The notes below the pieces were generated by a model. That model did no database searches and was not told the DNA's origin. It was given only the letters and a program-made list of their open reading frames with translations. This document shows positions 21,931 through 52,973 of a DNA stretch of 64,000 nucleotides, piece by piece. Made by a program: the position numbers and the translations under genes. Positions within the stretch are counted from its first letter, which is position 1. Each line of letters starts with the position of its first letter. Origin of the DNA: Linanthus parryae (Eukaryota; Streptophyta; Magnoliopsida; Ericales; Polemoniaceae); the NCBI GenBank assembly GCA_023055425.1, contig JALGPY010000003.1:56653891-56717890 (forward strand), in the 5' to 3' direction.

Positions 21931-21931
21931 A

Positions 21932-26112: not shown

Positions 26113-26217
26113 CTCTCACAGCAAACAATAATTACCATCATTTTTATTCAACTTGGCTTATTATGCCACATAATAATCTATATAGATATAGATTATAATT
26201 ATTATTATTATTATTAC

Positions 26218-26262
<45 letters not shown>

Positions 26263-26729
26263 CATCATCATTTTTATTCATCTTGACTCTTGCGGTTCCT
26301 TAGCGTTACCTATAAATTTTTAAGATCAATGAAACAAAAACAAATGCTACAATTTAGTTCCTTTTATATTTTTCTAGAAGTGAACAAAGAATCCAATTTT
26401 GCAATAGAGTAAATGGTGTGGTCTTGCTCTAACCATACAGCACAGAACACATATTAAATAAAAAGAATGAGCGACAGACAAAAAGAAGTGGATTTTCTGG
26501 ATATTCTGACATGTCATGTGATGTATTGATTAGAATACCATGTCAACAGTGATACACTACCAGAGATACACTTTTTTGAGTGTGTCAATTGACAAACCCT
26601 AAGTTTAGCAAAAACGCATCAAATTTGTATTTGTTCTTTTCAGTTCAATAAATCTGATATATGAGCCTCTTGGCTTACACAATACTAAATTATTTTTTTC
26701 AAGGGAGGGTTTCACTACAGTAGCTTGTA

Positions 26730-26792
<63 letters not shown>

Positions 26793-27524
26793 CATCATCA
26801 TCATCATCATCATCATCATTTTTATTCCACTTGACCCTTGCTGTGCCTTGGTTTCCTATCAATTTCTTAGATCAACAAAACAAAAACAAATGCTACAATT
26901 TAGATCCTTTTATATTTTTCTAGAAGTGAACAACAATTCAATTTTGCTATAGAGTAAATGATGTGGCATTTCCCCAACCATACAGCAAAGAACACATATT
27001 AAAGAAAAAGAATGAGCGGCAGACAAAAGAAATTTGATATCCTGACATGTCATGTGATATATTGATTAGAATACCGTGTCAAACTTGCTCTTGGAGCAAA
27101 CAATAATTACCCTCTCAATTGGCCACCAAAAGCTAATATAAAGCTAATTAGTTGTTCTTTTATATCCTTTTTCAACATCTTTATCTTGACGGGTTTCATA
27201 TCTGGAAGCCAGGCAGCCTTCTTTCTTGGTTTTCATATTCTCATGAGAGTACCCCTGCAACAAAAGAGTCCTCTCTGGTCTCTAGCTTTGCTTGAGGCAA
27301 ATTGTTTTTGAGTCGGAGCAATCATCCTGTTTCAACCCACGCTTGTTGATTATTTAGTAGAGAATGTTAGGACGGCGGAGGCGCAATTAGCTCTTCTTGT
27401 ATAGAATCTAGACCTCTTGCTTGTTCTGAAACCCTTCTAGGATCCCAGCTTCTTAGTACTTTATAACAGAGTGGGGGCTCCAGTGGAACTCTGGCACCAA
27501 ACACACTCAAATATTGCTTTTGCC
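26113..27524 (+). repeat. Left end of the array: partial units before the first U1
   Basis: Two short partial units. The first has an (ATT)n run at about 26190-26262 and continues to about 26545. It then jumps at CAACAGTGATACACTACC to the sequence that precedes the next (ATT)n run (26726-26795, followed by an ATC run), so about 2.4 kb including a U1 gene is missing between them. From 26820 on the sequence is a normal unit end leading into the promoter at 27506. The minus-strand frame conserved in other units is interrupted by a stop here. Confidence 0.85.
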
Positions 27525-27653
27525 TCCCACATCGAGCAATTGGCGACACTATGAAAAAACTCAAATATTGCTTTTGCCTCCCACATCGAGCAATTGGCGA
27601 CACTATGAAAAAGAGACGAGTACATAAATAAAAAGTATTGTGCACTGGACAAC
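27506..27653 (+). promoter_or_regulatory. snRNA promoter, copy 1: duplicated USE and TATA-like box
   Basis: A 54-bp block occurs twice in tandem (27506-27559, 27560-27613), each with TCCCACATCG, the plant snRNA upstream sequence element (USE), at 27525-27534 and 27579-27588. ATAAATA at 27624-27630 lies 30 bp before the RNA start, and the proximal USE starts at -75. About 36 bp separate the proximal USE from the TATA-like box, the wider spacing known for RNA polymerase II snRNA genes in plants, rather than the about 10 bp shorter spacing of polymerase III genes. Confidence 0.88.
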
Positions 27654-27801
27654 ATACTTACCTGGACGGGGTCAATGGGTATCCAAGAAAACCCATGGCC
27701 TAGGGTGGTGAACTCCATTGCACATAGGAGTGGTACCGGTCTAAGACGTGGAGTCTACGTCATAATTTGTGGCTTAGGGGGCCTGCGTCTGCGCAGCCCC
27801 T
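27654..27801 (+). ncRNA. U1 snRNA-like gene, copy 1
   Basis: 148 nt beginning ATACTTACCTGG, the U1 5' end that pairs with 5' splice sites. Offsets within the RNA: stem-loop I TGGGT/ACCCA at 23-27 and 38-42; stem-loop II ACTCC/GGAGT around loop ATTGCACATA at 59-78, keeping the ATTGCAC core bound by U1A; a short stem-loop III AGAC/GTCT at 91-103; Sm site AATTTGTG at 111-118; GC-rich terminal stem at 122-148. Usual plant U1 is about 160 nt or more; the shortfall is in stem-loop III. The stem-loop I loop (ATCCAAGAAA) departs from the usual GATCAAGAAG recognised by U1-70K. Copy-specific changes: TTAGGGGG before the last stem and GCGCAGCCCC in it. U1 identity is firm; activity is not proven. Confidence 0.9.
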
Positions 27802-29539
27802 ACGAAGTTATTAGTTCAGAATTATAATTTAATTTTTGGCGTTCCATTTTTTCTGAGAATTTGTAGTTAGCAGCCATGTTAGTTTAATAAAATACGGTTT
27901 GGCTGGCTATAGGCAAATTACACAGTCGGCCTCTATGTACTTGGTGCAGTGCAACGGGATTTCAGCTAACACCATTACATGAAACTAAAGCATTAATTGT
28001 CACTCTAATACACTTAGAAAAATTAATTTGGGTTCTGGATGGACAACAAATTTTGTATCTTTGTGAAGACAACTACAGCTTCATCTTGTCCAAATTGAAG
28101 CTCAAGCCCAACAACATATATATGAAGCTGTCTTCTCGGTCACTGCTGTCCAAAGCTCAATGGGGTTGTCTCTTTGTGTGATTCAAAAAGAGTTGGTTGG
28201 TTGGAATCAGTTAAAAAACAATATCATCCGATGATTCAAGTGAAATCCGGCCTGCCCGGCGAGCATCTAATGATATTTTGATGCTCTCAATGTTACTACA
28301 ATGTCGCGAACAAACACAACCAAATAATTTCATCATATCCAGTCTTAGCTGAAGCTTTCAGTCTGTAAATTGCCGTACTATACTGGTGATTATAACAAAA
28401 GTCCGTGATTGAAGTTGATTATGTTTTCAGTTAGACAAATGTAAGTCCGTGATTGAAGTTGATTATGTTTTCAGTTAGACAAATGTTTTTATTTACATAC
28501 GCAGTGTATAAAAAAGGATTAGTTACCCAAAGAGGGTAACAGCATGACAAGTCACATTCCCTAAGTTTAACATTAACGCATCAAATAAGTACGGTTCGAG
28601 CAATGCGGGACTTTGTTATGAACGTAATTTAAAAGAAGGATATAATCGATTGATTTAGATTCGATTTAAAAGGCCTAAAGAAGAAAATTATCCAGCAATG
28701 ACAAGGAAACTACATACATGACTGCGAAAGAAAGGAATTACGGGAGGTGAAAAGGCTTGGAGCTTCCCTATGGAGAAAAGTTTTGACTGCAAGCCCTAAT
28801 ACACTAGAAAAATTAACGATTTGGTTTCTTGAGGGGCAAAAATTGAGCACGCCATAACCAGTTTTTGTATCTTTGTGAAGACAACTACACCTTCATCTTG
28901 TCCAAATTGAAGCTCAAGCCCAACAACATATATATGAAGCTGTCTTCTCGGTAACTGCTGCCCAAATCTTAATGGGAAGAGTTGGTTGGTTGGAATCGGT
29001 TAAAAACAATATCATGAGATGATTCAAGTGAAACTGGCCTGAGCGGGCAAGCATCTAGTGATATTTTGATGCTCACAAAGTTACTACCATATCACGAACA
29101 AACACAACTAAATAGTTTAATCATATCCAGTCTAAGTTGACATTTTCATTCTGTAACTTGTCCTACCAAACTAGTGATTATACAAAAAATTGATTTATTT
29201 TCAGATAGACACAAATGTTTTATGCGGTGTATAAAAAGGATTAGTTACCGAAAGAGGGTAACACCAACATTACTGTTGGGGCACTGTCACAATCTGTCTA
29301 GAGGATTCGTGTGTTTAATGCCCAAACACCAATAGGTGGTGCGTTAACTTATTCGACAGTGATACACTACCAGAGATACACTTTTTTGAGTGTGACAATT
29401 GACAAACCCTAATTTTAACAACAACGCATCAAATTTGTATTTGTTCTTTTCAGTTCAATAAATCTGGTATATGAGTCTCTTGGCTTACACAATACTAAAT
29501 TATTTTTTTCAAGGGAGGGTTTCACTACAGTAGATTGTA

Positions 29540-29617
<78 letters not shown>

Positions 29618-30327
29618 CATCATCATCATTTTTATTCAACTTGACTCTTGCTGTTCCTTAGCGTTTTCTATCAATTTCTTTGATCAACAAAACAAAAACA
29701 AATGCTAAAATTTAGTTTCTTTCATATTTTTCCTGAAGTGAACAAAGAATCCAATTTTGCTGTAGAGTAAATGATGTGGCGTTGCTCTAACCATACAGTA
29801 CAAAACACATATTAAAGAAAAGGAATGAGCGGCAGACAAAAGAAAGTTGATATCCTGGATATCCCGACATGTCATGTGATGTATTGATTAGAATACCGTG
29901 TCAAACTCGCTCTTGGAGCAAACAATAATTACCCTCTCAATTGGCCACCAAAAGCTAATATAAAGCTAATTAGTTGTTCTTTTATATCCTTTTTCAACAT
30001 CTTTATCTTGACGGATTTCTTATCTGGAAGCCAGGCAGCCTTCTTTCTTGGTTTTCTTATTCTCATGAGAGTACCCCTGCAACAAAAGAGTCCTCTCTGG
30101 TCTCTAGCTTTGCTTGAGGCAAATTGTTTTTGAGTCGGAGCAATCATCCTGTTTCAACCCACGCTTGTTGATTATTTAGTAGAGAATGTTAGGACGGCGG
30201 AGGCGCAATTAGCTCTTCTTTTATAGAATCTAGACTTGTTGCTTATTCTGAAATCCTTCTAGGATCCCAGGTTCTTAGTACTTTATAACAGAGTGGGGGA
30301 TCCAGTGGAACTCTGGCACCAAACACA
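27802..30327 (+). repeat. Array spacer 1
   Basis: Contains segment A (about 28015-28600), shortened because it lacks the inverted-repeat stretch present in later units, then segment B (about 28800-29440), an (ATT)n run at 29540-29617 and a conserved 72-codon minus-strand frame at 30147-29929. The absence of TCTATTGGT/ACCAATAGA and of the GGCTGGCTTCTTAAAGAAG phrase makes this unit about 150 bp shorter than the rest. Confidence 0.85.
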
Positions 30328-30475
30328 CTCAAATATTGCTTTTGCCTCCCACATCGAGCAATTGGCGACACTATGAAAAAACTCAAATATTGCTTTTGCC
30401 TCCCACATCGAGCAATTGGCGACACTATGAAAAAGAGACGAGTACATAAATAAAAAGTATTGTGCACTGGACAAC
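30328..30475 (+). promoter_or_regulatory. snRNA promoter, copy 2
   Basis: USE at 30347-30356 and 30401-30410 within a tandem 54-bp block; TATA-like ATAAATA at 30446-30452, 30 bp before U1. Confidence 0.88.
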
Positions 30476-30623
30476 ATACTTACCTGGACGGGGTCAATGG
30501 GTATCCAAGAAAACCCATGGCCTAGGTTGGTGAACTCCATTGCACATAGGAGTGGTACCGGTCTAAGACGTGGAGTCTACGTCATAATTTGTGGCTGAGG
30601 GGGCCTGCGTCCGCGCGGCCCCT
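30476..30623 (+). ncRNA. U1 snRNA-like gene, copy 2
   Basis: 148 nt with the same architecture as copy 1: ATACTTACCTGG 5' end, stem-loops I to III, AATTTGTG Sm site and GC-rich terminal stem ending GCGCGGCCCCT. It has CTAGGTTGG where copy 1 has CTAGGGTGG, a group difference shared with copies 3, 4 and 7. Downstream, AGTTATTAGTTCAGAA lies 4 bases past the end and resembles the plant snRNA 3'-end box. Confidence 0.9.
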
Positions 30624-32505
30624 ACCAAGTTATTAGTTCAGAATTATAATTTAATTTTTGGCGTTTTTTCTGAGAATTTGTAGTTAGCAGCCATGTTAGT
30701 TTCAAAAAATACGGTTTGGCTGGCTATAGGCAAATTACACAGTCGGGCTGGCTTCTTAAAGAAGTGTTTCAGTAGGCTATGTACTTGGTGCAGTGCAACG
30801 GGATTTCAGCTAACACCATTACATGAAACTAAAGCATTAATTGTCACTCTAATACACTTAGAAAAATTAACAAATTTGGGTTCTGGATGGACAACAAATT
30901 TTTATCTTTGTGAAGACAACTACAGCTTCATCTTGTCCAAATTGAAGCTCAAGCCCAACAACATATATATGAAGCTGTCTTCTCGGTCACTGTTGTCCAA
31001 AGCTCAATGGGGTTGTCTCTTTGTGTGATTCAAAAAGAGTTGGTTGGTTGGAATCAGTTACAAAACAATATCATCCGATGATTCAAGTGAAATCCGGCCT
31101 GCCCGGCGAGCATCTAATGATATTTTGATGCTCTCAATGTTACTACAATGTCGCGAACAAACACAACCAAATAATTTCATCATATCCAGTCTTAGCTGAA
31201 GCTTTCAGTCTGTAAATTGCCGTACTATACTGGTGATTATAACAAAAGTCCATGATTGAAGTTGATTATGTTTTCAGTTAGACAAATGTAAGTCCGTGAT
31301 TGAATTTGATTATGTTTTCAGTTAGACAAATGTTTTTATTTACATATGCAGTGTATAAAAAAGAATTAGTTACCCAAAGAGGGTAACAACATCATTACTG
31401 TTGGGGCATTGTCGAAATCTGTGTCTATTGGTCGAGTTTAATGCCCAAACACCAATAGATGGTGCGTTGACTCAGTCATCACTGATACACTATGAGAGAT
31501 ACACTTTGAGTGTGACAAGTCACATTCCCTAAGTTTAACATTAACGCATCAAATAAGTACGGTTCGAGCAATGCGGGACTTTGTTATGAACGTAATTTAA
31601 AAGAAGGATATAATCGATTGATTTAGATTCGATTTAAAAGGCCTAAAGAAGAAAATTATCCAGCAATGACGAGGAAACTACATACATGACTGCGAAAGAA
31701 AGGAATTACGGGAGGTGAAAACGCTTGGAGCTTCCCTATGGAGAAAAGTTTTGACTGCAAGCCCTAATACTCTAGAAAAATTAACGAATTTGGTTTCTTG
31801 AGGGGCAAAAATTGAGCACGCCATAACCAGTTTTTGTATCTTTGTGAAGACAACTACACCTTCATCTTGTCCAAATTGAAGCTCAAGCCCAACAACATAT
31901 ATATGAAGCTGTCTTCTCGGTAACTGCTGCCCAAATCTTAATGGGAAGAGTTGGTTGGTTGGAATCGGTTAAAAACAATATCATGAGATGATTCAAGTGA
32001 AACTGGCCTGCGCGGGCAAGCATCTAGTGATATTTTGATGCTCACAAAGTTACTACTATATCACGAACAAACACAACTAAATAGTTTAATCATATCCAGT
32101 CTAAGTTGACATTTTCATTCTGTAACTTGTCCTACCAAACTAGTGATTATACAAAAAATTGATTTATTTTCAGATAGACACAAACGTTTTATGCGGTATG
32201 TAAAAAGGATTAGTTACCCAAAGAGGGTAACACCAACATTACTGTTGGGGCACTGCCACAATCTGTCTAGAGGATTCGTGTGTTTAATGCCCAAACACCA
32301 ATAGGTGGTGCGTTAACTTATTCGACAGTGATACACTACCAGAGATACACTTTTTTGAGTGTGACAAATGACAAACCCTAAGTTTAACAACAACACATCA
32401 AATTTATATTTGTTCTTTTCAGTTCAATAAATCTGGTATATGAGCCTCTTGGCTTACACAATACTAAATTATTTTTTTCAAGGGAGGGTTTCACTACAGT
32501 AGATT

Positions 32506-32563
<58 letters not shown>

Positions 32564-33297
32564 TACTACTACTATTATTATTATTATCATCATCATCATT
32601 TTTATTCAACTTGACTCTTGCTGTTCCTTAGCGTTTTCTATCAATTTCTTTGATCAACAAAACAAAAACAAATGCTAAAATTTAGTTTCTTTTATATTTT
32701 TCCAGAAGTGAACAAAGAATCCAATTTTGCTGTAGAGTAAATGATGTGGCGTTGCTCTAACCATACAGCACAAAACACATATTAAAGAAAAAGAATGAGC
32801 GGCAGACATAAGAAAGTTGATATCCTGGATATCCCGACATGTCATGTGATGTATTGATTAGAATACCGTGTCAAACTTGCTCTTGGAGCAAACAATAATT
32901 ACCCTCTCAATTGGCCACCAAAAGCTAATATAAAGCTAATTAGTTGTTCTTTTATATCCTTTTTCAACATCTTTATCTTGACGGATTTCTTATCTGGAAG
33001 CCAGGCAGCCTTCTTTCTTGGTTTTCTTATTCTCATGAGAGTACCCCTGCAACAAAAGAGTCCTCTCTGGTCTCTAGCTTTGCTTGAGGCAAATTGTTTT
33101 TGAGTCGGAGCAATCATCCTGTTTCAACCCACGCTTGTTGATTATTTAGTAGAGAATGTTAGGACGGCGGAGGCGCAATTAGCTCTTCTTGTATAGAATC
33201 TAGACTTGTTGCTTGTTCTGAAATCCTTCTAGGATCCCAGCTTCTTAGTACTTTATAACAGAGTGGGGGATCCAGTGGAACTCTGGCACCAAACACA
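30624..33297 (+). repeat. Array spacer 2
   Basis: Segment A at about 30860-31560, segment B at about 31778-32410, an (ATT)n run interrupted by ACT triplets at 32509-32588, and the 72-codon minus-strand frame at 33117-32899. It is the first full-length spacer in the array. Confidence 0.88.
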
Positions 33298-33445
33298 CTC
33301 AAATATTGCTTTTGCCTCCCACATCGAGCAATTGGCGACACTATGAAAAAACTCAAATATTGCTTTTGCCTCCCACATCGAGCAATTGGCGACACTATGA
33401 AAAAGAGACGAGTACATAAATAAAAAGTATTGTGCACTGGACAAC
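33298..33445 (+). promoter_or_regulatory. snRNA promoter, copy 3
   Basis: USE at 33317-33326 and 33371-33380; TATA-like ATAAATA at 33416-33422, 30 bp before U1. Confidence 0.88.
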
Positions 33446-33593
33446 ATACTTACCTGGACGGGGTCAATGGGTATCCAAGAAAACCCATGGCCTAGGTTGG
33501 TGAACTCCATTGCACATAGGAGTGGTACCGGTCTAAGACGTGGAGTTTACGTCATAATTTGTGGCTGAGGGGGCCTGCGTCCGCGCGGCCCCT
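33446..33593 (+). ncRNA. U1 snRNA-like gene, copy 3
   Basis: 148 nt, ATACTTACCTGG 5' end intact. Stem-loop III reads AGAC/GTTT, so one C-to-T change turns a G-C pair into a G-U pair and the short stem survives. Sm site and terminal stem are as in copy 2. Confidence 0.9.
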
Positions 33594-35481
33594 ACCAAGT
33601 TATTAGTTCAGAATTATAATTTAATTTTTGGCGTGCCATTTTTTCTGAGAATTTGTACTTAGCAGCCATGTTAGTTTCATAAAATACGGTTTGGCTGGCT
33701 ATAGGCAAATTACACAGTCGGGCTGGCTTCTTAAAGAAGTGTTTCAGTAGGCTATGTACTTGGTGCAGTGCAACGGGATTTCAGCTAACACCATTACATG
33801 AAACTAAAGCATTAATTGTCACTCTAACACACTTAGAAAAATTAACAAATTTGGGTTCTGGATGGACAACAAATTTGTATCTTTGTGAAGACAACTACAG
33901 CTTCATCTTGTCCAAATTGAAGCTCAAGCCCAACAACATATATATGAAGCTGTCTTCTCGGTCACTGCTGTCCAAAGCTCAATGGGGTTGTCTCTTTGTG
34001 TGATTCAAAAAGAGTTGGTTGGTTGGAATCAGTTACAAAACAATATCATCCGATGATTCAAGTGAAATCCGGCATGCCCGGCGAGCATCTAATGATATTT
34101 TGATGCTCTCAATGTTACTACAATGTCGCGAACAAACACAACCAAATAATTTCATCATATCCAGTCTTAGCTGAAGCTTTCAGTCTGTAAATAGCCGTAC
34201 TATACTGGTGATTATAACAAAAGTCCGTGATTGAAGTTGATTATGTTTTCAGTTAGACAAATGTAAATTCGTGATTGAAGTTGATTATGTTTTCAGTTAG
34301 ACAAATGTTTTTATTAACATACGCAGTGTATAAAAAAGGATTAGTTACCCAAAGAGGGTAACAACATCATTACTGTTGGGGCATTGTCGCAATCCGTGTC
34401 TATTGGTCGAGTTTAATGCCCAAACACCAATAGATGGTGCGTTGACTCAGTCATCACTGATACACTATGAGAGATACACTTTGAGTGTGACAAGTCACAT
34501 TCCCTAAGTTTAACATTAACGCATCAAATAAGTACGGTTCGAGCAATGCGGGACTTTGTTATGAACGTAATTTAAAAGAAGGATATAATCGATTGATTTA
34601 GATTCGTTTTAAAAGGCCAAAAGAAGAAAATTATCCAGCAATGACGAGGAAACTACATACATGACTGCGAAAGAAAGGAATTACGGGAGGTGAAAAGGCT
34701 TGGAGCTTCCCTATGGAGAAAAGTTTTGACTGCAAGCCCTAATACACTAGAAAAATTAACGAATTTGGTTTCTTGAGGGGCAAAAATTGAGCACGCCATA
34801 ACCAGTTTTTGTATCTTTGTGAAGACAACTACACCTTCATCTCGTCCAAATTGAAGCTCAAGCCCAACAACATATATATGAAGTTGTCTTCTCGGTAACT
34901 GCTGCCCAAATCTTAATGGGAAGAGTTGGTTGGTTGGAATCGGTTAAAAACAATATCATGAGATGATTCAAGTGAAACTGGCCTGCGCGGGCAAGCATCT
35001 AGTGATATTTTGATGCTCACAAAGTTACTACCATATCACGAACAAACACAACTAAATAGTTTAATCATATCCAGTCTAAGTTGACATTTTCATTCTGTAA
35101 CTTGTCCTACCAAACTAGTGATTATACAAAAAATTGATTTATTTTCAGATAGACACAAATGTTTTATGCGGTATATAAAAAGGATTAGTTACCCAAAGAG
35201 GGTAACACCAACATTACTGTTGGGGCACTGTCACAATCTGTCTAGAGGATTCGTGTGTTTAATGCCCAAACACCAATAGGTGGTGCGTTAACTTATTCGA
35301 CAGTGATACACTACCAGAGATACACTTTTTTGAGTGTGACAATTGACAAACCCTAAGTTTAACAACAACGCATCAAATTTGTATTTGTTCTTTTCAGTTC
35401 AATAAATCTGGTATATGAGCCTCTTGGCTTACACAATACTAAATTTTTTTTTTCAAGGGAGGGTCACTACAGTAGATTGTA

Positions 35482-35565
<84 letters not shown>

Positions 35566-36254
35566 ACTTGACTCTTGCTGTTCCTTAGCGTTTTCTATCA
35601 ATTTCTTTGATCAACAAAACAAAAACAAATGCTAAAATTTAGTTTCTTTTATATTTTTCCAGAAGTGAACAAAGAATCCAATTTTGCTGTAGAGTAAATG
35701 ATGTGGCGTTGCTCTAACCATACAGTACAAAACACATATTAAAGAAAAGGAATGAGCGGCAGACAAAAGAAAGTTGATATCCTGGATATCCCGACATGTC
35801 ATGTGATGTATTGATTAGAATACCGTGTCAAACTCGCTCTTGGAGCAAACAATAATTACCCTCTCAATTGGCCACCAAAAGCTAATATAAAGCTAATTAG
35901 TTGTTCTTTTATATCCTTTTTCAACATCTTTATCTTGACGGATTTCTTATCTGGAAGCCAGGCAGCCTTCTTTCTTGGTTTTCTTATTCTCATGAGAGTA
36001 CCCCTGCAACAAAAGAGTCCTCTCTGGTCTCTAGCTTTGCTTGAGGCAAATTGTTTTTGAGTCAGAGCAATCATCCTGTTTCAACCCACGCTTGTTGATT
36101 ATTTAGTAGAGAATGTTAGGACGGCGGAGGCGCAATTAGCTCTTCTTTTATAGAATCTAGACTTGTTGCTTATTCTGAAATCCTTCTAGGATCCCAGCTT
36201 CTTAGTACTTTATAACAGAGTGGGGGATCCAGTGGAACTCTGGCACCAAACACA
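33594..36254 (+). repeat. Array spacer 3 (reference unit)
   Basis: Segment A about 33834-34525 and segment B about 34748-35385 are alignable throughout and differ by many substitutions and small indels. Both carry a long stem (33887-33957 in A) and the hairpin GTTACCC-AAAGA-GGGTAAC (34344-34362 in A, 35188-35206 in B). Only A carries TCTATTGGT/ACCAATAGA (34399-34434). An (ATT)n run follows at 35482-35565 and the 72-codon minus-strand frame at 36074-35856. Confidence 0.88.
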
Positions 36255-36402: not shown

Positions 36403-36550
36403 ATACTTACCTGGACGGGGTCAATGGGTATCCAAGAAAACCCATGGCCTAGGTTGGTGAACTCCATTGCACATAGGAGTGGTACCGGTCTAAGACGTGG
36501 AGTCTACGTCATAATTTGTGGCTGAGGGGGCATGCGTCCGCGTGGCCCCT
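36403..36550 (+). ncRNA. U1 snRNA-like gene, copy 4
   Basis: 148 nt, 5' end, stem-loops I to III and Sm site as in copy 2. Two substitutions fall in the terminal stem (GGGGGCATGCG and CGCGTGGCCCC), one on each arm. Confidence 0.9.
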
Positions 36551-38438
36551 ACCAAGTTATTAGTTCAGAATTATAATTTAATTTTTGGCGTGCCATTTTT
36601 TCTGAGAATTTGTAGTTAGCAGCCATGTTAGTTTCATAAAATACGGTTTGGCTGGCTATTGGCAAATTACACAGTCGGGCTGGCTTCTTAAAGAAGTGTT
36701 TCAGTAGGCTATGTACTTGGTGCAGTGCAACGGGATTTCAGCTAACACCATTACATGAAACTAAAGGATTAATTGTCACTCTAACACACTTAGAAAAATT
36801 AACAAATTTGGGTTCTGGATGGACAACAAATTTGTATCTTTGTGAAGACAACTACAGCTTCATCTTGTCCAAATTGAAGCTCAAGCCCAACAACATATAT
36901 ATGAAGCTGTCTTCTCGGTCACTGCTGTCCAAAGCTCAATGGGGTTGTCTCTTTGTGTGATTCAAAAAGAGTTGGTTGGTTGGAATCAGTTACAAAACAA
37001 TATCATCCGATGATTCAAGTGAAATCCGGCCTGCCCGGCGAGCATCTAATGATATTTTGATGCTCTCAATGTTACTACAATGTCGCGAACAAACACAACC
37101 AAATAATTTCATCATATCCAGTCTTAGCTGAAGCTTTCAGTCTGTAAATTGCCGTACTATACTGGTGATTATAACAAAAGTCCGTGATTGAAGTTGATTA
37201 TGTTTTCAGTTAGACAAATGTAAGTCCGTGATTGAAAATGATTATGTTTTCAGTTAGACAAATGTTTTTATTAACATACGCAGTGTATAAAAAAGGATTA
37301 GTTACCCAAAGAGGGTAACAACATCATTACTGTTGGGGCATTGTCGCAATCTGTGTGTATTGGTCGAGTTTAATGCCCAAACACCAATAGATGGTGCGTT
37401 GACTCAGTCATCACTGATACACTATGAGAGATACACTTTGAGTGTGACAAGTCACATTCCCTAAGTTTAACATTAACGCATCAAATAAGTACGGTTCGAG
37501 CAATGCGGGACTTTGTTATGAACGTAATTTAAAAGAAGGATATAATCGATTGATTTAGATTCGATTTAAAAGGCCAAAAGAAGAAAATTATCCAGCAATG
37601 ACGAGGAAACTACATACATGACTGCGAAAGAAAGGAATTACGGGAGGTGAAAAGGCTTGGAGCTTCCCTATGGAGAAAAGTTTTGACTGCAAGCCCTAAT
37701 ACACTAGAAAAATTAACGAATTTGGTTTCTTGAGGGGCAAAAATTGAGCACGCCATAACCAGTTTTTGTATCTTTGTGAAGACAACTACACCTTCATCTC
37801 GTCCAAATTGAAGCTCAAGCCCAACAACATATATATGAAGCTGTCTTCTCGGTAACTGCTGCCCAAATCTTAATGGGAAGAGTTGGTTGGTTGGAATCGG
37901 TTAAAAACAATATCATGAGATGATTCAAGTGAAACTGGCCTGCGCGGGCAAGCATCTAGTGATATTTTGATGCTCACAAAGTTACTACCATATCACGAAC
38001 AAACACAACTAAATAGTTTAATCATATCCAGTCTAAGTTGACATTTTCATTCTGTAACTTGTCCTACCAAACTAGTGATTATACAAAAAATTGATTTATT
38101 TTCAGATAGACACAAATGTTTTATGCGGTATATAAAAAGGATTAGTTACCCAAAGAGGGTAACACCAACATTACTGTTGGGGCACTGTCACAATCTGTCT
38201 AGAGGATTCGTGTGTTTAATGCCCAAACACCAATAGGTGGTGCGTTAACTTATTCGACAGTGATACACTACCAGAGATACACTTTTTTGAGTGTGACAAT
38301 TGACAAACCCTAAGTTTAACAACAACGCATCAAATTTGTATTTGTTCTTTTCAGTTCAATAAATCTGGTATATGAGTCTCTTGGCTTACACAATACTAAA
38401 TTTTGTTTTTCAAGGGAGGGTCACTACAGTAGATTGTA

Positions 38439-38495
<57 letters not shown>

Positions 38496-39344: not shown

Positions 39345-39488
39345 ATACTTACGTGGACGGGGTCAATGGGTATCCAAGAAAACCCATGGCCTAGGGTGGT
39401 GAACTCCATTGCACATAGGAGTGGTACCGGTCTAAGACGTGGAGTTTACGTCATAATTTGTGGCTGAGGGGGCCTACGTGCGGCCCCT
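39345..39488 (+). ncRNA. U1 snRNA-like gene, copy 5, altered 5' end and shortened last stem
   Basis: 144 nt. The 5' end reads ATACTTACGTGG: nucleotide 9 is G instead of C. In U1 that base pairs with the last exon base (-1) of a 5' splice site, so this copy would prefer C rather than G there. The terminal stem-loop is shortened by four bases (CCTACGTGCGGCCCC), and stem-loop III has the GTTT form. It is the most altered copy, and could be decaying or a variant. Downstream sequence is also shorter than in its neighbours, lacking the TTAGCAGCCATGTTAG stretch. Confidence 0.88.
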
Positions 39489-41356
39489 ACCAAGTTATTA
39501 GTTTAGAATTATAATTTAATTTTTGGCGTGCCATTTTTTCTGAGAATTTGTAGTATGAAACACGGTTTGGCTGGCTATTGGCAAATTACACAGTCGGGCT
39601 GGCTTCTTAAAGAAGTGTTTCAGTAGGCTATGTACTTGGTGCAGTGCAACGGGATTTCAGCTAACACCATTACATGAAACTAAAGCATTAATTGTCACTC
39701 TAACACACTTAGAAAAATTAACAAATTTGGGTTCTGGATGGACAACAAATTTGTATCTTTGTGAAGACAACTACAGCTTCATCTTGTCCAAATTGAAGCT
39801 CAAGCCCAACAACATATATATGAAGCTGTCTTCTCGGTCACTGCTGTCCAAAGCTCAATGGGGTTGTCTCTTTGTGTGATTCAAAAAGAGTTGGTTGGTT
39901 GGAATCAGTTACAAAACAATATCATCCGATGATTCAAGTGAAATCCGGCCTGCCCGGCGAGCATCTAATGATATTTTGATGCTCTCAATGTTACTACAAT
40001 GTCGCGAACAAACACAACCAAATAATTTCATCATATCCAGTCTTAGCTGAAGCTTTCAGTCTGTAAATTGCCGTACTATACTGGTGATTATAACAAAAGT
40101 CCGTGATTGAAGTTGATTATGTTTTCAGTTAGACAAATGTAAATTCGTGATTGAAGTTGATTATGTTTTCAGTTAGACAAATGTTTTTATTAACATACGC
40201 AGTGTATAAAAAAGGATTAGTTACCCAAAGAGGGTAACAACATCATTACTGTTGGGGCATTGTCGCAATCTGTGTCTATTGGTCGAGTTTAATGCCCAAA
40301 CACCAATAGATGGTGCGTTGATTCAGTCATCACTGATACACTATGAGAGATACACTTTGAGTGTGACAAGTCACATTCCCTAAGTTTAACATTAACGCAT
40401 CAAATAAGTACGGTTCGAGCAATGCGGGACTTTGTTATGAACGTAATTTAAAAGAAGGATATAATCGATTGATTTAGATTCGATTTAAAAGGCCTAAAGA
40501 AGAAAATTATCCAGCAATGACGAGGAAACTACATACATGACTGCGAAAGAAAGGAATTACGGGAGGTGAAAAGGCTTGGAGCTTCCCTATGGAGAAAAGT
40601 TTTGACTGCAAGCCCTAATACACTAGAAAAATTAACGAATTTGGTTTCTTGAGGGGCAAAAATTGAGCACGCCATAACCAGTTTTTGTATCTTTGTGAAG
40701 ACAACTACACCTTCATCTCGTCCAAATTGAAGCTCAAGCCCAACAACATATATATGAAGCTGTCTTCTCGGTAACTGCTGCCCAAATCTTAATGGGAAGA
40801 GTTGGTTGGTTGGAATCGGTTAAAAACAATATCATGAGATGATTAAAGTGAAACTGGCCTGCGCGGGCAAGCATCTAGTGATATTTTGATGCTCACAAAG
40901 TTACTACCATATCACGAACAAACACAACTAAATAGTTTAATCATATCCAGTCTAAGTTGACATTTTCATTCTGTAACTTGTCCTACCAAACTAGTGATTA
41001 TACAAAAAATTGATTTATTTTCAGATAGACACAAATGTTTTATGTGGTATATAAAAAGGATTAGTTACCCAAAGAGGGTAACACCAACATTACTGTTGGG
41101 GCACTGTCACAATCTGTCTAGAGGATTCGTGTGTTTAATGCCCAAACACCAATAGGTGGTGCGTTAACTTATTCGACAGTGATACACTACCAGAGATACA
41201 CTTTTTTAAGTGTGACAATTGACAAACCCTAAGTTTAACAACAACGCATCAAATTTGTATTTGTTCTTTTCAGTTCAATAAATCTGGTATATGAGCCTCT
41301 TGGCTTACGCAATACTAAATTATTTTTTTCAAGGGAGGGTTTCACTACAGTAGATT

Positions 41357-41435
<79 letters not shown>

Positions 41436-42145
41436 CATCATCATCATTTTTATTCAACTTGACTCTTGCTGTTCCTTAGCGTTTTCTATCAATTTCTTTG
41501 ATCAACAAAACAAAAACAAATGCTAAAATTTAGTTTCTTTTATATTTTTCCAGAAGTGAACAAAGAATCCAATTTTGCTGTAGAGTAAATGATGTGGCGT
41601 TGCTCTAACCATACAGCACAAAACACATATTAAAGAAAAAGAATGAGTGGCAAACAAAAGAAAGTTGATATCCTGGATATCCCGACATGTCATGTGATGT
41701 ATTGATTAGAATACCGTGTCAAACTTGCTCTTGGAGCAAACAATAATTACCCTCTCAATTGGCCACCAAAAGCTAATATAAAGCTAATTAGTTGTTCTTT
41801 TATATCCTTTTTCAACATCTTTATCTTGACGGATTTCTTATCTGGAAGCCAGGCAGCCTTCTTTCTTGGTTTTCTTATTCTCATGAGAGTACCCCTGCAA
41901 CAAGAGAGTCCTCTCTGGTCTCTAGCTTTGCTTGAGGCAAATTGTTTTTGAGTCGGAGCAATCATCCTGTTTCAACCCACGCTTGTTGATTATTTAGTAG
42001 AGAATGTTAGGACGGCGGAGGCGCAATTAGCTCTTCTTGTATAGAATCTAGACTTGTTGCTTATTCTGAAATCCTTCTAGGATCCCAGCTTCTTAGTACT
42101 TTATAACAGAGTGGGGGATCCAGTGGAACTCTGGCACCAAACACA
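39489..42145 (+). repeat. Array spacer 5
   Basis: Segment A about 39710-40400, segment B about 40622-41260, an (ATT)n run at 41359-41435 and the 72-codon minus-strand frame at 41965-41747. A small deletion lies at about 39553, just after the U1 gene. Confidence 0.88.
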
Positions 42146-42293
42146 CTCAAATATTGCTTTTGCCTCCCACATCGAGCAATTGGCGACACTATGAAAAAAC
42201 TCAAATATTGCTTTTGCCTCCCACATCGAGCAATTGGCGACACTATGAAAAAGAGACGAGTACATAAATAAAAAGTATTGTGCACTGGACAAC
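42146..42293 (+). promoter_or_regulatory. snRNA promoter, copy 6
   Basis: USE at 42165-42174 and 42219-42228; TATA-like ATAAATA at 42264-42270. Confidence 0.88.
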
Positions 42294-42441
42294 ATACTTA
42301 CCTGGACGGGGTCAATGGGTATCCAAGAAAACCCATGGCCTAGGGTGGTGAACTCCATTGCACATAGGAGTGGTACCGGTCTAAGACGTGGAGTTTACGT
42401 CATAATTTGTGGCTGAGGGGGCCTACGTCCGCGCGGCCCCT
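42294..42441 (+). ncRNA. U1 snRNA-like gene, copy 6
   Basis: 148 nt, intact ATACTTACCTGG. It shares CTAGGGTGG and GTTTACG with copy 5, and GCCTACG in the terminal stem, so copies 5 and 6 are the closest pair. This copy retains the normal 5' end and full terminal stem length. Confidence 0.9.
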
Positions 42442-44328
42442 ACCAAGTTATTAGTTTAGAATTATAATTTAATTTTTGGCGTGCCATTTTTTCTGAGAAT
42501 TTGTAGTTAGCAGCCATGTTAGTTTCATAAAATACGGTTTGGCTGGCTATTGGCAAATTACACAGTCGGGCTGGCTTCTTAAAGAAGTGTTTCAGTAGGC
42601 TATGTACTTGGTGCAGTGCAACGGGATTTCAGCTAACACCATTACATGAAACTAAAGCATTAATTGTCACTCTAACACACTTAGAAAAATTAACAAATTT
42701 GGGTTCTGGATGGACAACAAATTTGTATCTTTGTGAAGACAACTACAGCTTCATCTTGTCCAAATTGAAGCTCAAGCCCAACAACATATATATGAAGCTG
42801 TCTTCTCGGTCACTGCTGTCCAAAGCTCAATGGGGTTGTCTCTTTGTGTGATTCAAAAAGAGTTGGTTGGTTGGAATCAGTTACAAAACAATATCATCCG
42901 ATGATTCAAGTGAAATCCGGCCTGCCCGGCGAGCATCTAATGATATTTTGATGCTCTCAATGTTACTACAATGTCGCGAACAAACACAACCAAATAATTT
43001 CATCATATCCAGTCTTAGCTGAAGCTTTCAGTCTGTAAATTGCCGTACTATACTGGTGATTATAACAAAAGTCCGTGATTGAAGTTGATTATGTTTTCAG
43101 TTAGACAAATGTAAATTCGTGATTGAAGTTGATTATGTTTTCAGTTAGACAAATGTTTTTATTAACATACGCAGTGTATAAAAAAGGATTAGTTACCCAA
43201 AGAGGGTAACAACATCATTACTGTTGGGGCATTGTCGCAATCTGTGTCTATTGGTCGAGTTTAATGCCCAAACACCAATAGATGGTGCGTTGATTCAGTC
43301 ATCACTGATACACTATGAGAGATACACTTTGAGTGTGACAAGTCACATTCCCTAAGTTTAACATTAACGCATCAAATAAGTACGGTTCGAGCAATGCGGG
43401 ACTTTGTTATGAACGTAATTTAAAAGAAGGATATAATCGATTGATTTAGATTCGATTTAAAAGGCCTAAAGAAGAAAATTATCCAGCAATGACGAGGAAA
43501 CTACATACATGACTGCGAAAGAAAGGAATTACGGGAGGTGAAAAGGCTTGGAGCTTCCCTATGGAGAAAAGTTTTGACTGCAAGCCCTAATACACTAGAA
43601 AAATTAACGAATTTGGTTTCTTGAGGGGCAAAAATTGAGCACGCCATAACCAGTTTTTGTATCTTTGTGAAGACAACTACACCTTCATCTCGTCCAAATT
43701 GAAGCTCAAGCCCAACAACATATATATGAAGCTGTCTTCTCGGTAACTGCTGCCCAAATCTTAATGGGAAGAGTTGGTTGGTTGGAATCGGTTAAAAACA
43801 ATATCATGAGATGATTAAAGTGAAACTGGCCTGCGCGGGCAAGCATCTAGTGATATTTTGATGCTCACAAAGTTACTACCGTATCACGAACAAACACAAC
43901 TAAATAGTTTAATCATATCCAGTCTAAGTTGACATTTTCATTCTGTAACTTGTCCTACCAAACTAGTGATTATACAAAAAATTGATTTATTTTCAGATAG
44001 ACACAAATGTTTTATGTGGTATATAAAAAGGATTAGTTACCCAAAGAGGGTAACACCAACATTACTGTTGGGGCACTGTCACAATCTGTCTAGAGGATTC
44101 GTGTGTTTAATGCCCAAACACCAATAGGTGGTGCGTTAACTTATTCGACAGTGATACACTACCAGAGATACACTTTTTTAAGTGTGACAATTGACAAACC
44201 CTAAGTTTAACAACAACGCATCAAATTTGTATTTGTTCTTTTCAGTTCAATAAATCTGGTATATGAGCCTCTTGGCTTACGCAATACTAAATTATTTTTT
44301 TCAAGGGAGGGTTTCACTACAGTAGATT

Positions 44329-44368
<40 letters not shown>

Positions 44369-45078
44369 CATCATCATCATTTTTATTCAACTTGACTCTT
44401 GCTGTTCCTTAGCGTTTTCTATCAATTTCTTTGATCAACAAAACAAAAACAAATGCTAAAATTTAGTTTCTTTTATATTTTTCCAGAAGTGAACAAAGAA
44501 TCCAATTTTGCTGTAGAGTAAATGATGTGGCGTTGCTCTAACCATACAGCACAAAACACATATTAAAGAAAAAGAATGAGCGGCAGACATAAGAAAGTTG
44601 ATATTCTGGATATCCCGACATGTCATGTGATGTATTGATTAGAATACCGTGTCAAACTTGCTCTTGGAGCAAACAATAATTACCCTCTCAATTGGCCACC
44701 AAAAGCTAATATAAAGCTAATTAGTTGTTCTTTTATATCCTTTTTCAACATCTTTATCTTGACGGATTTCTTATCTGGAAGCCAGGCAGCCTTCTTTCTT
44801 GGTTTTCTTATTCTCATGAGAGTACCCCTGCAACAAAAGAGTCCTCTCTGGTCTCTAGCTTTGCTTGAGGCAAATTGTTTTTGAGTCGGAGCAATCATCC
44901 TGTTTCAACCCACGCTTGTTGATTATTTAGTAGAGAATGTTAGGACGGCGGAGGCGCAATTAGCTCTTCTTGTATAGAATCTAGACTTGTTGCTTATTCT
45001 GAAATCCTTCTAGGATCCCAGCTTCTTAGTACTTTATAACAGAGTGGGGGATCCAGTGGAACTCTGGCACCAAACACA
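42442..45078 (+). repeat. Array spacer 6
   Basis: Segments A (about 42660-43360) and B (about 43570-44225) nearly match spacer 5 base for base. The (ATT)n run is the shortest of the complete units (44328-44368). The 72-codon minus-strand frame is at 44898-44680. Confidence 0.88.
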
Positions 45079-45226
45079 CTCAAATATTGCTTTTACCTCC
45101 CACATCGAGCAATTGGCGACACTATGAAAAAACTCAAATATTGCTTTTGCCTCCCACATCGAGCAATTGGCGACACTATGAAAAAGAGACGAGTACATAA
45201 AATTAAAGTATTGTGCACTGGACAGC
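45079..45226 (+). promoter_or_regulatory. snRNA promoter, copy 7, altered TATA-like box
   Basis: USE at 45098-45107 and 45152-45161 are intact. The TATA-like box reads ATAAAATTAAAG (45197-45208) instead of ATAAATAAAAAG, and the start region has GACAGCATACTT. This copy may be transcribed less well. Confidence 0.82.
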
Positions 45227-45374
45227 ATACTTACCTGGACGGGGTCAATGGGTATCCAAGAAAACCCATGGCCTAGGTTGGTGAACTCCATTGCACATAG
45301 GAGTGGTACCGGTCTAAGACGTGGAGTCTACGTCATAATTTGTGGCTGAGGGGGCCCGCGTCCGCGCGGCCCCT
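45227..45374 (+). ncRNA. U1 snRNA-like gene, copy 7
   Basis: 148 nt, intact ATACTTACCTGG, stem-loops I to III and Sm site. The terminal stem reads GGGGGCCCGCG, with one T-to-C change. The RNA is normal for the family, but its promoter is the only one with a changed TATA-like box. Confidence 0.9.
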
Positions 45375-47413
45375 ACCAAGTTATTAGTTCAGAATTATAA
45401 TTTAATTTTTGGCGTGCCATTTTTTCTGAGAATTTGTAGTTAGCAGCCATGTTAGTTTCATAAAATACGGTTTGGCTGGCTATAGGCAAATTACACAGTC
45501 GGGCTGGCTTCTTAAAGAAGTGTTTCAGTAGGCTTGCCATTTTTTCTGAGAATTTGTAGTTAGCAGCCATGTTAGTTTCATAAAATACGGTTTGGCTGGC
45601 TATAGGCAAATTACACAGTCGGGCTGGCTTCTTAAAGAAGTGTTTCAGTAGGCTATGTACTTGGTGCAGTGCAACGGGATTTCAGCTAACACCATTACAT
45701 GAAACTAAAGCATTAATTGTCACTCTAACACACTTAGAAAAATTAACAAATTTGGGTTCTGGATGGACAACAAATTTGTATCTTTGTGAAGACAACTACA
45801 GCTTCATCTTGTCCAAATTGAAGCTCAAGCCCAACAACATATATATGAAGCTGTCTTCTCGGTCACTGCTGTCCAAAGCTCAATGGGGTTGTCTCTTTGT
45901 GTGATTCAAAAAGAGTTGGTTGGTTGGAATCAGTTACAAAACAATATCATCCGATGATTCAAGTGAAATCCGGCCTGCCCGGCGAGCATCTAATGATATT
46001 TTGATGCTCTCAATGTTACTACAATGTCGCGAACAAACACAACCAAATAATTTCATCATATCCAGTCTTAGCTGAAGCTTTCTGTCTGTAAATTGCCGTA
46101 CTATACTGGTGATTATAACAAAAGTCCGTGATTGAAGTTGATTATGTTTTCAGTTAGAACAAAATGTAAGTCCGTGATTGAAGTTGATTATGTTTTCAGT
46201 TAGACAAATGTTTTTATTTACATACGCAGTGTATAAAAAAGGATTAGTTACACAAAGAGGGTAACAGCATCATTACTATTGGGGCATTGTCGCAATCTGT
46301 GTCTATTGGTCGAGTTTAATGCCCAAACACCAATAGATGGTGCGTTGACTCAGTCATCACTGATACACTATGAGAGATACACTTTGAGTGTGACAAGTCA
46401 CATTCCCTAAGTTTAACATTAACGCATCAAATAAGTACGGTTCGAGCAATGCGGGACTTTGTTATGAACGTAATTTAAAAGAAGGATATAATCGATTGAT
46501 TTAGATTCGATTTAAAAGGCCAAAAGAAGAAAATTATCCAGCAATGACGAGGAAACTACATACATGACTGCGAAAGAAAGGAATTACGGGAGGTGAAAAG
46601 GCTTGGAGCTTCCCTATGGAGAAAAGTTTTGACTGCAAGCCCTAATACACTAGAAAAATTAACGAATTTGGTTTCTTGAGGGGCAAAAATTGAGCACGCC
46701 ATAACCAGTTTTTGTATCTTTGTGAAGACAACTACACCTTCATCTTGTCCAAATTGAAGCTCAAGCCCAACAACATATATATGAAGCTGTCTTCTCGGTA
46801 ACTGCTGCCCAAATCTTAATGGGAAGAGTTGGTTGGTTGGAATCGGTTAAAAACAATATCATGAGATGATTCAAGTGAAACTGGCCTGCACGGGCAAGCA
46901 TCTAATGATATTTTGATGCTCACAAAGTTACTACCATATCACGAACAAACACAACTAAATAGTTTAATCATATCCAGTCTAAGTTGACATTTTCATTCTG
47001 TAACTTGTCCTACCAAACTAGTGATTATACAAAAAATTGATTTATTTTCAGATAGACACAAATGTTTTATGCGGTATATAAAAAGGATTAGTTCCCCAAA
47101 GAGGGTAACACCAACATTACTGTTGGGGCACTGTCACAATCTGTCTAGAGGATTCGTGTGTTTAATGCCCAAACACCAATAGGTGGTGCGTTAACTTATT
47201 CGACAGTGATACACTACCAGAGATACACTTTTTTGAGTGTGACAATTGACAAACCCTAAGTTTAACAACAACGCATCAAATTTGTATTTGTTCTTTTCAG
47301 TTCAATAAATCTGGTATATGAGCCTCTTGGCTTACACAATACTAAATTATTTTTTTCAAGGGAGGGTCACTACAGTAGATTGTATATTATTATTATTATT
47401 ATTATTATTATTA

Positions 47414-47480
<67 letters not shown>

Positions 47481-48169
47481 ACTTGAATCTTGCTGTTCCT
47501 TAGCGTTTTCTATCAATTTCTTTGATCAACAAAACAAAAACAAATGCTAAAATTTAGTTTCTTTTATATTTTTCCAGAAGTGAACAAAGAATCCAATTTT
47601 GCTGTAGAGTAAATGATGTGGCGTTGCTCTAACCATACAGCACAAAACACATATTAAAGAAAAAGAATGAGCGGCAGACAAAAGAAAGTTGATATCCTGG
47701 ATATCCCGACATGTCATGTGATGTATTGATTAGAATACCGTGTCAAACTCACTCTTGGAGCAAACAATAATTACCCTCTCAATTGGCCACCAAAAGCTAA
47801 TATAAAGCTAATTAGTTGTTCTTTTATATCCTTTTTCAACATCTTTATCTTGACGGATTTCATATCTGGAAGCCAGGCAGCCTTCTTTCTTGGTTTTCTT
47901 ATTCTCATGAGAGTACCCCTGCAACAAAAGAGTCCTCTCTGGTCTCTAGCTTTGCTTGAGGCAAATTGTTTTTGAGTCGGAGCAATCATCCTGTTTCAAC
48001 CCACGCTTGTTGATTATTTAGTAGAGAATGTTAGGACGGCGGAGGCGCAATTAGCTCTTCTTGTATAGAATCTAGACTTGTTGCTTATTCTGAAATCCTT
48101 CTAGGATCCCAGCTTCTTAGTACTTTATAACAGAGTGGGGGATCCAGTGGAACTCTGGCACCAAACACA
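45375..48169 (+). repeat. Array spacer 7, with a 120-bp tandem duplication
   Basis: The block 45415-45534 is repeated at 45535-45654 with essentially no change, which explains the longer spacing (3091 bp) of this unit. Segment A about 45735-46425, segment B about 46650-47280, an (ATT)n run at 47384-47478 containing one ATC, and the 72-codon minus-strand frame at 47989-47771. Confidence 0.9.
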
Positions 48170-48317
48170 CTCAAATATTGCTTTTGCCTCCCACATCGAA
48201 CAATTGGCGACACTATGAAAAAACTCAAATATTGCTTTTGCCTCCCACATCGAGCAATTGGCGACACTATGAAAAAGAGACGAATACATAAATAAAAAGT
48301 ATTGTGCACTGGACAAC
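48170..48317 (+). promoter_or_regulatory. snRNA promoter, copy 8
   Basis: USE at 48189-48198 and 48243-48252. The distal one is followed by AA rather than AG. TATA-like ATAAATA at 48288-48294. Confidence 0.88.
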
Positions 48318-48465
48318 ATACTTACCTGGACGGGGTCAATGGGTATCCAAGAAAACCCATGGCCTAGGGTGGTGAACTCCATTGCACATAGGAGTGGTAC
48401 CGGTCTAAGACGTGGAGTCTACGTCATAATTTGTGGCTGAGGGGGCCTGCGTCCGCGCGGCCCCT
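48318..48465 (+). ncRNA. U1 snRNA-like gene, copy 8
   Basis: 148 nt, the last copy. Intact 5' end, CTAGGGTGG, AGAC/GTCT stem-loop III, AATTTGTG Sm site and terminal stem ending GCGCGGCCCCT. With copies 2 and 6 it is among the least altered relative to the family majority. Confidence 0.9.
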
Positions 48466-50745
48466 ACCAAGTTATTAGTTCAGAATTATAATTTAATTTT
48501 TGGCGTGCCATTTTTTCTGAGAATTTGTAGTTAGCAGCCATGTTAGTTTCATAAAATACGGTTTGGCTGGCTATAGGCAAATTACACAGTCGGGCTGGCT
48601 TCTTAAAGAAGTGTTTCAGTAGGCTATGTACTTGGTGCAGTGCAACGGGATTTCAGCTAACACCATTACATGAAACTAAAGCATTAATTGTCACTCTAAC
48701 ACACTTTGAAAAATTAACAAATTTGGGTTCTGGATGGACAACAAATTTGTATCTTTGTGAAGACAACTACAGCTTCATCTTGTCCAAATTGAAGCTCAAG
48801 CCCAACAACATATATATGAAGCTGTCTTCTCGGTCACTGCTTTCCAAAGCTCAATGGGGTTGTCTCTTTGTGTGATTCAAAAAGAGTTGGTTGGTTGGAA
48901 TCAGTTACAAAACAATATCATCCGATGATTCAAGTGAAATCCGGCCTGCCCGGCGAGCATCTAATGATATTTTGATGCTCTCAATGTTACTACAATGTCG
49001 CGAACAAACACAACCAAGTAATTTCATCATATCCAGTCTTAGCTGAAACTTTCAGTCTGTAAATTGCCGTACTATACTGGTGATTATAACAAAAGTCCGT
49101 GATTGAAGTTGATTATGTTTTCAGTTAGACAAATGTAAGTCCGTGATTGAAGTTGATTATGTTTTCAGTTAGACAAATGTTTTTATTTACACACGCAGTG
49201 TATAAAAAAGGATTAGTTACCCAAAGAGGGTAACAACATCATTACTGTTGGGGCATTGTCGCAATCTGTGTCTATTGGTCGAGTTTAATGCCCAAACACC
49301 AATAGATGGTGCGTTGACTCAGTCATCACTGATACACTATGAGAGATACACTTTTAGTGTGACAAGTCACATTCCCTAAGTTTAACATTAACGCATCAAA
49401 TAAGTACGGTTCGAGCAATGCGGGACTTTGTTATGAACGTAATTTAAAATAAGTATATAATCGATTGATTTAGATTCGATTTAAAAGGCCTAAAGAAGAA
49501 AATTATCCAGCAATGACGAGGAAACTACATACATGACTGCGAAAGAAAGGAATTATGGGAGGTGAAAAGGCTTGGAGCTTCCCTATGGAGAAAAGTTTTG
49601 ACTGCAAGCCCTAATACACTAGAAAAATAAACGAATTTGGTTTCATGAGGGGCAAAAATTGAGCACGACATAACCAGTTTTTGTATCTTTGTGAAGACAA
49701 CTACACCTTCATCTTGTCCAAATTGAAGCTCAAGCCCAACAACATATATATGAAGCTGTCTTCTCGGTAACTGCTGCCCAAAGCTTAATGGGAAGAGTTG
49801 GTTGGTTGGAATCGGTTAAAAACAATATCATGAGATGATTCAAGTGAAACAGGCCTGCGCGGGCAAGCATCTAGTGATATTTTGATGCTCACAAAGTTAC
49901 TACAATATCACGAACAAACACAACTAAATAGTTTAATCATATCCAGTCTAAGTTGACATTTTCAGTCTGTAACTTGTCCTACCAAACTAATGATTATACA
50001 AAAAAATTGATTTATTTTCAGATAGACACAAGTGTTTTATGCGGTGTATAAAAAGGATTAGTTACCCAAATAGGGTAACACCAACATTACTGTTGGGGCA
50101 CTGTCACAATCAGTCTAGAGGATTCGTGTGTTTAATGCCCAAACACCAATAGGTGGTGCGTTAACTTATTCGACAGTGATACACTACCAGAGATACACTT
50201 TTTTGAGTGTGACAATTGACAAACCCTAAGTTTAACAACAACGCATCAAATTTGTATTTGTTCTTTTCAGTTCAATAAATCTGGTATATGAGCCTCTTGG
50301 CTTATACAATACTAAATTATTTTTTTCAAGGGAGGGTTTCACTACAGTAGCTTGTATATTATTATTAATATTATTATTATTACTACTATTATTATTATTA
50401 TTATCATCATCATCATTTTTATTCAACTTGACTCTTGTTGTTCCTTAGCGTTTCCTATCAATTTCTTAGATCAACAAAACAAAAACAAATGCTACAATTT
50501 AGTTTCTTTTATATTGTTCCAGAAGTGAACAAAGAATCCAATTTTGCTGTAGAGTAAATGATGTGGCGTTGCTCTAACCATACAGCACAGAACACATATT
50601 AAAGAAAAGAATGTGCGGCAGACAAAATAAGGTTGATATCCTGGATATCCCGACATGTCATGTGATGTATTGATTAGACTTTGTTATGAACGTAATTTAC
50701 AAGGTTACTACAATATCACGAACAAACACAACTAAATATCACGAA
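48466..50745 (+). repeat. Right end of the array, truncated unit with shuffled fragments
   Basis: Segment A about 48705-49400, segment B about 49620-50245, and a short mixed (ATT)n run at 50357-50403. The unit then stops at about 50676, before the next promoter and U1. Two short out-of-order unit fragments follow: CTTTGTTATGAACGTAATTTA (50679-50699) and a piece with ATCACGAACAAACACAACTAAATA (50711-50735). Copia sequence begins at about 50745. This end is somewhat more diverged than the middle of the array. Confidence 0.82.
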
Positions 50746-52970: not shown

Positions 52971-52973
52971 ATG

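Follow-up and report, generated by a model that had tools for sequence, protein, structure and literature searches.

Sea urchin U1 genes lie in arrays. Repeated U1 genes, and paralogous developmental forms beside the main form, are described for both Xenopus and sea urchin in PMC4291461 and PMC10361878. Human variant U1 (vU1) genes are multi-copy, diverged paralogues of one chromosome region with base changes at protein sites; PMC13172311 gives more than 100 annotated copies on chromosome 1, and according to PMC5159530 some vU1 particles are devoid of U1-70K. Canonical plant U1 genes (RF00003) are dispersed or in small groups. For Arabidopsis, PMC545797 reports 14 U1 copies, with seven U1-U4 pairs and not in long arrays. 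Among the open-access literature matches listed, titles and abstracts report no plant U1 array such as that described below, and the variant U1 RNAs found among these matches come from animals.

We analysed a window (the whole 64,000-nucleotide stretch of DNA under study) of the Linanthus parryae genome, located on a contig labelled C46, which harbours a tandem array of U1 genes. These genes resemble canonical plant U1 by their 5' splice-site-pairing end, U1A loop, Sm site, stem-loop IV and USE/TATA promoter. They differ from it by their organization in long tandem arrays, their doubled upstream element (USE), the changed loop of stem-loop I and a stem-loop III shorter by 11 nt. In contrast with human vU1, the Linanthus family is of independent plant origin, has one loop change common to all and is arranged in tidy ~2.9-kb tandem units. 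It differs from the Xenopus and sea urchin genes by its changed U1-70K loop.

The tandem array and its promoters

A cmscan analysis of the window identified eight U1 genes, all on the + strand, as RF00003 matches of 145-150 nt with scores between 81.2 and 102.2 bits, and all eight exceed the gathering threshold of this Rfam model (69.5 bits). Their start-to-start spacings are 2822, 2970, 2957, 2942, 2949, 2933 and 3091 bp, in agreement with an earlier, sequence-only reading of this DNA that had proposed eight U1-like genes on the + strand every 2.8-3.1 kb. Beyond these genes, no Rfam family scored above its cut-off in the window. Sub-threshold matches are far under their cut-offs and lie outside the array, and neither tRNAs nor further Rfam families were found inside the array unit.

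Using self-BLAST and alignment, we delimited a tandem array of ~2.95-kb units on the + strand at positions 26192..50678, composed of eight gene-bearing units and a partial unit at each end, with a small tail of homology reaching 50738. Remains of retroelements flank the array on both sides. As had been noted in the earlier reading, the eight units are nearly identical (97.1-99.4% identity in the alignment). They carry private substitutions and indels, and one of them has a private 120-bp duplication (45411-45654), all of which argue against an assembly artefact in which a single unit was repeated by the assembler. Such an artefact is hardly credible, given also the differences of 0.6-2.9% between units and the presence of the same unit, of roughly 2.9 kb, with other shared differences in sequences fetched from two further places on C46, kinship with a third place being based on gene and flank similarity.

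The genes of copies 1, 2, 3 and 8 are found at 27654..27803 (97.4 bits), 30476..30625 (100.9 bits), 33446..33595 (98.2 bits) and 48318..48467 (100.1 bits), respectively. Copy 4 (36403..36551, 96.8 bits) has a changed stem-loop IV, re-registered with equal predicted energy; copy 6 (42294..42442, 92.0 bits) harbours a G132 to A change in the same stem-loop, and copy 7 (45227..45376, 102.2 bits) differs by 3 bases in the TATA region. Copy 5 (39345..39489, 81.2 bits) is damaged: its stem-loop IV is shortened by a 4-nt deletion, and a C9 to G change affects its 5' end, which reads ATACTTACG. The other seven copies begin with the exact 5' start ATACTTACC, for which 0.45 occurrences are expected by chance in the window, and their 5' splice-site complementarity is exact. 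The U1A loop ATTGCAC (AUUGCAC in the RNA) and the Sm site AATTTGTGG (AAUUUGUGG in the RNA) are present in all eight copies, as had been claimed. The 5' splice-site-pairing end and the full set of U1 features had also been attributed to every copy, which is correct for seven of them but not for copy 5.

The prediction of a plant snRNA promoter in front of each gene proved right. In front of gene 1 (27505..27612, + strand), a 54-bp promoter segment occurs twice in tandem, with one upstream element CCCACATCG per segment, and this duplication is found in all eight copies, the pairs of the other seven genes starting at 30327, 33297, 36254, 39196, 42145, 45078 and 48169 on the same strand. The upstream elements are located at -128 and -74 in 8/8 copies. 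A TATA-like box (27623..27630 for gene 1, + strand) is found at -31, a position identical in all eight; it reads CATAAATA in seven copies and CATAAAAT in copy 7. The USE-TATA spacing separates Pol II from Pol III plant snRNA genes, a spacing of about 34 bp, with the TATA box near -30, corresponding to the Pol II class. The proximal upstream element and the TATA-like box are 34 bp apart in 8/8 copies, and the window genes thus have Pol II-type plant snRNA promoters. The presence of such promoters with a doubled USE in all copies makes some transcription likely.

Directly 3' of the gene, five of the eight copies harbour CA-N7-AGTTCAG, one base off the plant snRNA 3' signal consensus CAN3-10AGTNNAA given in PMC545797. 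Copies 5 and 6 have AGTTTAG, and copy 1 has GA in place of CA. At a canonical U1 locus of the plant (L001), the 3' signal is likewise one base off the consensus.

Divergence from the canonical U1 genes of the plant

A U1 search of the 1.51-Gb genome, in which 42 loci were scored of 21347 candidates, revealed at least 42 other U1 loci of 160-161 nt by coordinates, all above the cut-off with scores of 140.9-154 bits. The sequences of eight of these high-scoring loci were read, and all eight are canonical U1 genes. We aligned the window genes with canonical genes (six rows, five of them distinct), which share 5' end, U1A loop and Sm site with them. Stem-loop III is shorter by 11 nt in all eight window copies. 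The loop of stem-loop I, which is GAUCAAGAAG in canonical U1 and constitutes the U1-70K site, is AUCCAAGAAA in 8/8 window copies. The U1-70K loop typical of U1 snRNA is GAUCANGAAG; in the window copies, four of the ten loop positions differ from the canonical sequence of the host: positions 28, 29, 30 and 37 are changed, and C31, A32, G34, A35 and A36 are kept. In the human U1-70K structure, as described in PMC4383343, G28 is located between Arg172 and Tyr112, U30 lies against Leu175 and is bonded to Asp177, and a pair is formed by A29 and A36. The changes in the loop include positions contacted by the human protein.

The window genes are a divergent paralogue, distinct from the ordinary U1 of the plant. 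The ordinary plant U1 identity implied by the sequence-only reading does not fit with their lower scores, their altered U1-70K loop and their short stem-loop III. As diverged paralogues found alongside a canonical set, with changed protein-binding sites, they are vU1-like. A tandem, homogeneous and promoter-bearing array might be taken for an ordinary bulk U1 supply locus, as in frogs or sea urchins. This is very unlikely here, since the array is devoid of the canonical U1-70K loop and at least 42 other loci score far better; furthermore, other small-RNA genes are found within about 1.5 kb of five of the eight canonical loci read.

A genome search for U1-70K genes, in which 10 candidates were scored, identified two, on contigs C90 and C1. 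Their existence would be compatible with a changed loop matched by a changed U1-70K, that is, with a fully normal particle having its own protein partner. However, the RRMs of both proteins retain the 11 loop-contact residues defined in the human structure (F106, Y112, K138, F148, R172, L175, D177, R190, R191, L196 and R200; PMC4383343), as judged by alignment for the C90 protein and by eye for the C1 protein. Co-evolution of U1-70K with the variant loop is thus unsupported, and we consider a matched partner highly improbable, with the proviso that more diverged relatives may be missed among 10 scored candidates. Because neither of the two genes found encodes a loop-matched U1-70K, the variant RNA is predicted to bind this protein poorly.

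The variant family elsewhere in the genome

A DNA search with the gene and its promoter, in which 40 matches were scored of 291 candidates, yielded at least 27 matches on C46, at least 1 on C35 and at least 12 on C112, these family counts being lower bounds. The C46 matches form four groups, at 56.68-56.70 Mb in the window (8 matches), 53.94-54.01 Mb (10 matches), 56.62-56.63 Mb (5 matches) and 56.54-56.55 Mb (4 matches, one of which, at 56551452, is partial). The window array is not alone: the variant gene also occurs at three other sites of C46, and a related U1 type is arrayed on C112. The loci read comprise 27 of the 28 C46 and C35 matches, the partial one excepted, and three of the 12 C112 matches. 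All 27 C46 and C35 loci harbour the altered stem-loop I loop, in which L020 lacks one A. In the three C112 loci read, the GAUCAAGAA start of the loop is normal, stem-loop III is full, the score is 138 bits, and a G-U intermediate is found at pair 25-40.

We built a midpoint-rooted tree of gene plus promoter sequences with 33 rows, including 26 of the family loci read (all but L017), five of the eight canonical loci (L003, L006 and L007 omitted) and two of the three C112 loci. The C46 family forms one clade (100/99) that adjoins the C112 sequences (100/99), apart from canonical U1.

Local groups of copies have differences in common, as in concerted arrays, the 54-bp promoter duplication of all eight window copies being one example. 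The U1A loop is CUUGCAC in six of the ten copies at 53.94-54.01 Mb, which are neighbours at 53.94-53.98 Mb; the four others there keep AUUGCAC, and none of the 17 other loci read has CUUGCAC. A changed U1A loop is found in 7 of the 27 family loci, all outside the window. Visible damage affects some copies in each of the four C46 places. The best preserved of these is the window array, in which 6 or 7 of 8 copies look complete. Between the window array and the other C46 groups, the core differs by 2.6-6.0%. The corresponding values for the flank at 150-600 are 4.6-5.4% for three of four groups and 7.7-10.0% for the remaining one, in which the higher values probably stem from inserts that perturb the alignment.

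The C35 copy differs from the window array by 1.7% in its core, and its outer flanks are unrelated. This stray copy (L026) is flanked by a 17-nt inverted pair, and we considered the possibility that it was carried by a transposon with terminal inverted repeats. We dropped this idea because one arm is native unit sequence, with a 14-nt core found at positions 28003 and 30847 of the window.

Constraint on the founder and its later relaxation

In the stems of helices I and II, the variant is separated from canonical U1 by nine substitutions. Each of the 25 base pairs considered is preserved, two of them, 25-40 (A-U to G-C) and 59-78 (C-G to A-U), through changes on both sides. With the ancestor approximated by living canonical copies, which limits the test, random placement of the substitutions on stem positions equalled 25/25 in 1147 of 200000 trials (P about 0.006), and in 949 of 200000 trials when another canonical copy was used. 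In the G52 form, pair 52-86 is broken and 24 of the 25 pairs are kept, a value reached by 1547 of 200000 trials. This conservation of pairing beyond chance indicates that the founder evolved under RNA-structure constraint, which maintained its U1 shape during the loop change.

The explanation that we favour, with roughly even confidence, is that a once-working variant U1 was later amplified into a tandem family with intact promoters. A canonical-like U1 gene would have diverged under selection that kept its RNA structure, changing its stem-loop I loop from the canonical to the variant form and shedding 11 nt of stem-loop III. Unequal exchange would then, most likely, have carried the variant to four or more sites of a single contig. 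Its RNA is expected to recognise 5' splice sites by base pairing as normal U1 does and to take the Sm ring and U1A, and poor binding of U1-70K is predicted to entail poor binding of U1-C. The odd U1 particle would then either be degraded or compete weakly at 5' splice sites.

By analogy with human precedents, the variant RNA may have two fates, namely a U1-70K-free particle, as reported for some vU1 (PMC5159530), or rapid degradation, as for three tested human U1 variants whose half-lives are below 10 minutes according to PMC7328512. We regard as unlikely the more ambitious proposal that the family defines a separate class of plant U1 particles able to recognise 5' splice sites without U1-70K, in which array copy number would set the dose of a natural U1 competitor that influences early polyadenylation or the selection of splice sites. 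The plant family combines a single defined U1-70K-loop change, a constrained origin and tens of near-identical arrayed genes; it would offer a natural test of U1 function without U1-70K, and would also show how snRNA arrays arise and decay.

Among the 27 copies, 13 of the 31 stem substitution events keep pairing, versus 13.01 expected. The amplified copies drift, constraint having been relaxed after amplification. In the window array, variation affects 3 of 120 columns of the core and 70 of 1735 of the flank (P 0.62), and 8 of 156 promoter columns (P 0.53 versus flank), the flank rate being calculated outside regions up1, up2, d1 and the promoter. C to T changes are found at 16 of 132 CG sites (12.1% per site) versus 27 of 808 CHH sites (3.3%; P 9e-5), and at 9 of 169 CHG sites, which is not significantly raised (P 0.26). 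This pattern suggests a footprint of CG methylation with no clear CHG signal, and perhaps silencing.

The neutral-like stem changes, a window core no less variable than the flank and the excess of CpG transitions are consistent with a silenced pseudogene array, whose founder worked but whose methylated copies would be untranscribed, or their RNA quickly destroyed, and would persist in a satellite-like manner. The damaged copies in all four places, the retroelements in the flanks and the short half-lives of the human variants point in the same direction. Plant heterochromatin is expected to bear a high CHG methylation footprint, which does not match the CHG value obtained here, and the promoters are intact in 8/8 window copies. 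Moreover, helices H, I and II of the window array, which is also young, show 0 changes except at column 52, and none of the 54 substitution events in the 27 copies affects the Sm site (P 0.016-0.029). We thus view the silenced array as a serious contender that is nevertheless somewhat doubtful, and we keep the amplified, once-working variant as our preferred reading. The loop of stem-loop I is also free of substitution events (0/54; P 0.016-0.04 for the Sm site and this loop), and the 5' end and the U1A loop account for 3 and 2 of the 54 events, respectively. In the window array, stem-loop IV is more variable than the flank, with 6 variable columns of 26 (P 0.0006).

Variant U1 copies outside the array

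On the contig that carries the array, the U1A-binding loop is altered to CUUGCAC in six adjacent variant U1 copies (loci L041 and L042, C46 53.94-53.98 Mb), and AUUGCAC is retained in four further variant copies of the same region. This pattern looks as if homogenisation had spread the altered loop once constraint had gone.

An isolated variant U1 copy found on another contig (L026, C35:52.50 Mb) keeps approximately 0.4-0.6 kb of the array unit, including a promoter with one upstream element (USE) only. It sits between unrelated flanks, and at its left edge 17 nt of the unit recur in inverted orientation.

Small-RNA genes near other U1 loci

Other small-RNA genes were found close to canonical U1 in five of the eight loci read (L001-L004 and L008). 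These include U5 genes in L001, L002, L003 and L004, joined in L002 by U2 and plant SRP RNA genes, with 3 kb of that locus holding four small-RNA genes, and a U3 gene in L008.

The C112 repeat, with its related U1 type, harbours an additional, degenerate U1-like gene ~1 kb away from the well-preserved U1 gene (L038:2526-2664, 70.6 bits; L036:2526-2668, 66.1 bits).

Retroelements flanking the array

In the window, a Ty3-type LTR element (7659-22508) shows 96% likeness between its terminal repeats. It harbours pol on the minus strand (15717-18830), a plus-strand plant mobile domain ORF (9621-11024) and an array of 54-bp repeats (14884-15505). Minus-strand remnants of a Copia-type retroelement (51184-53339) lie directly right of the U1 array.
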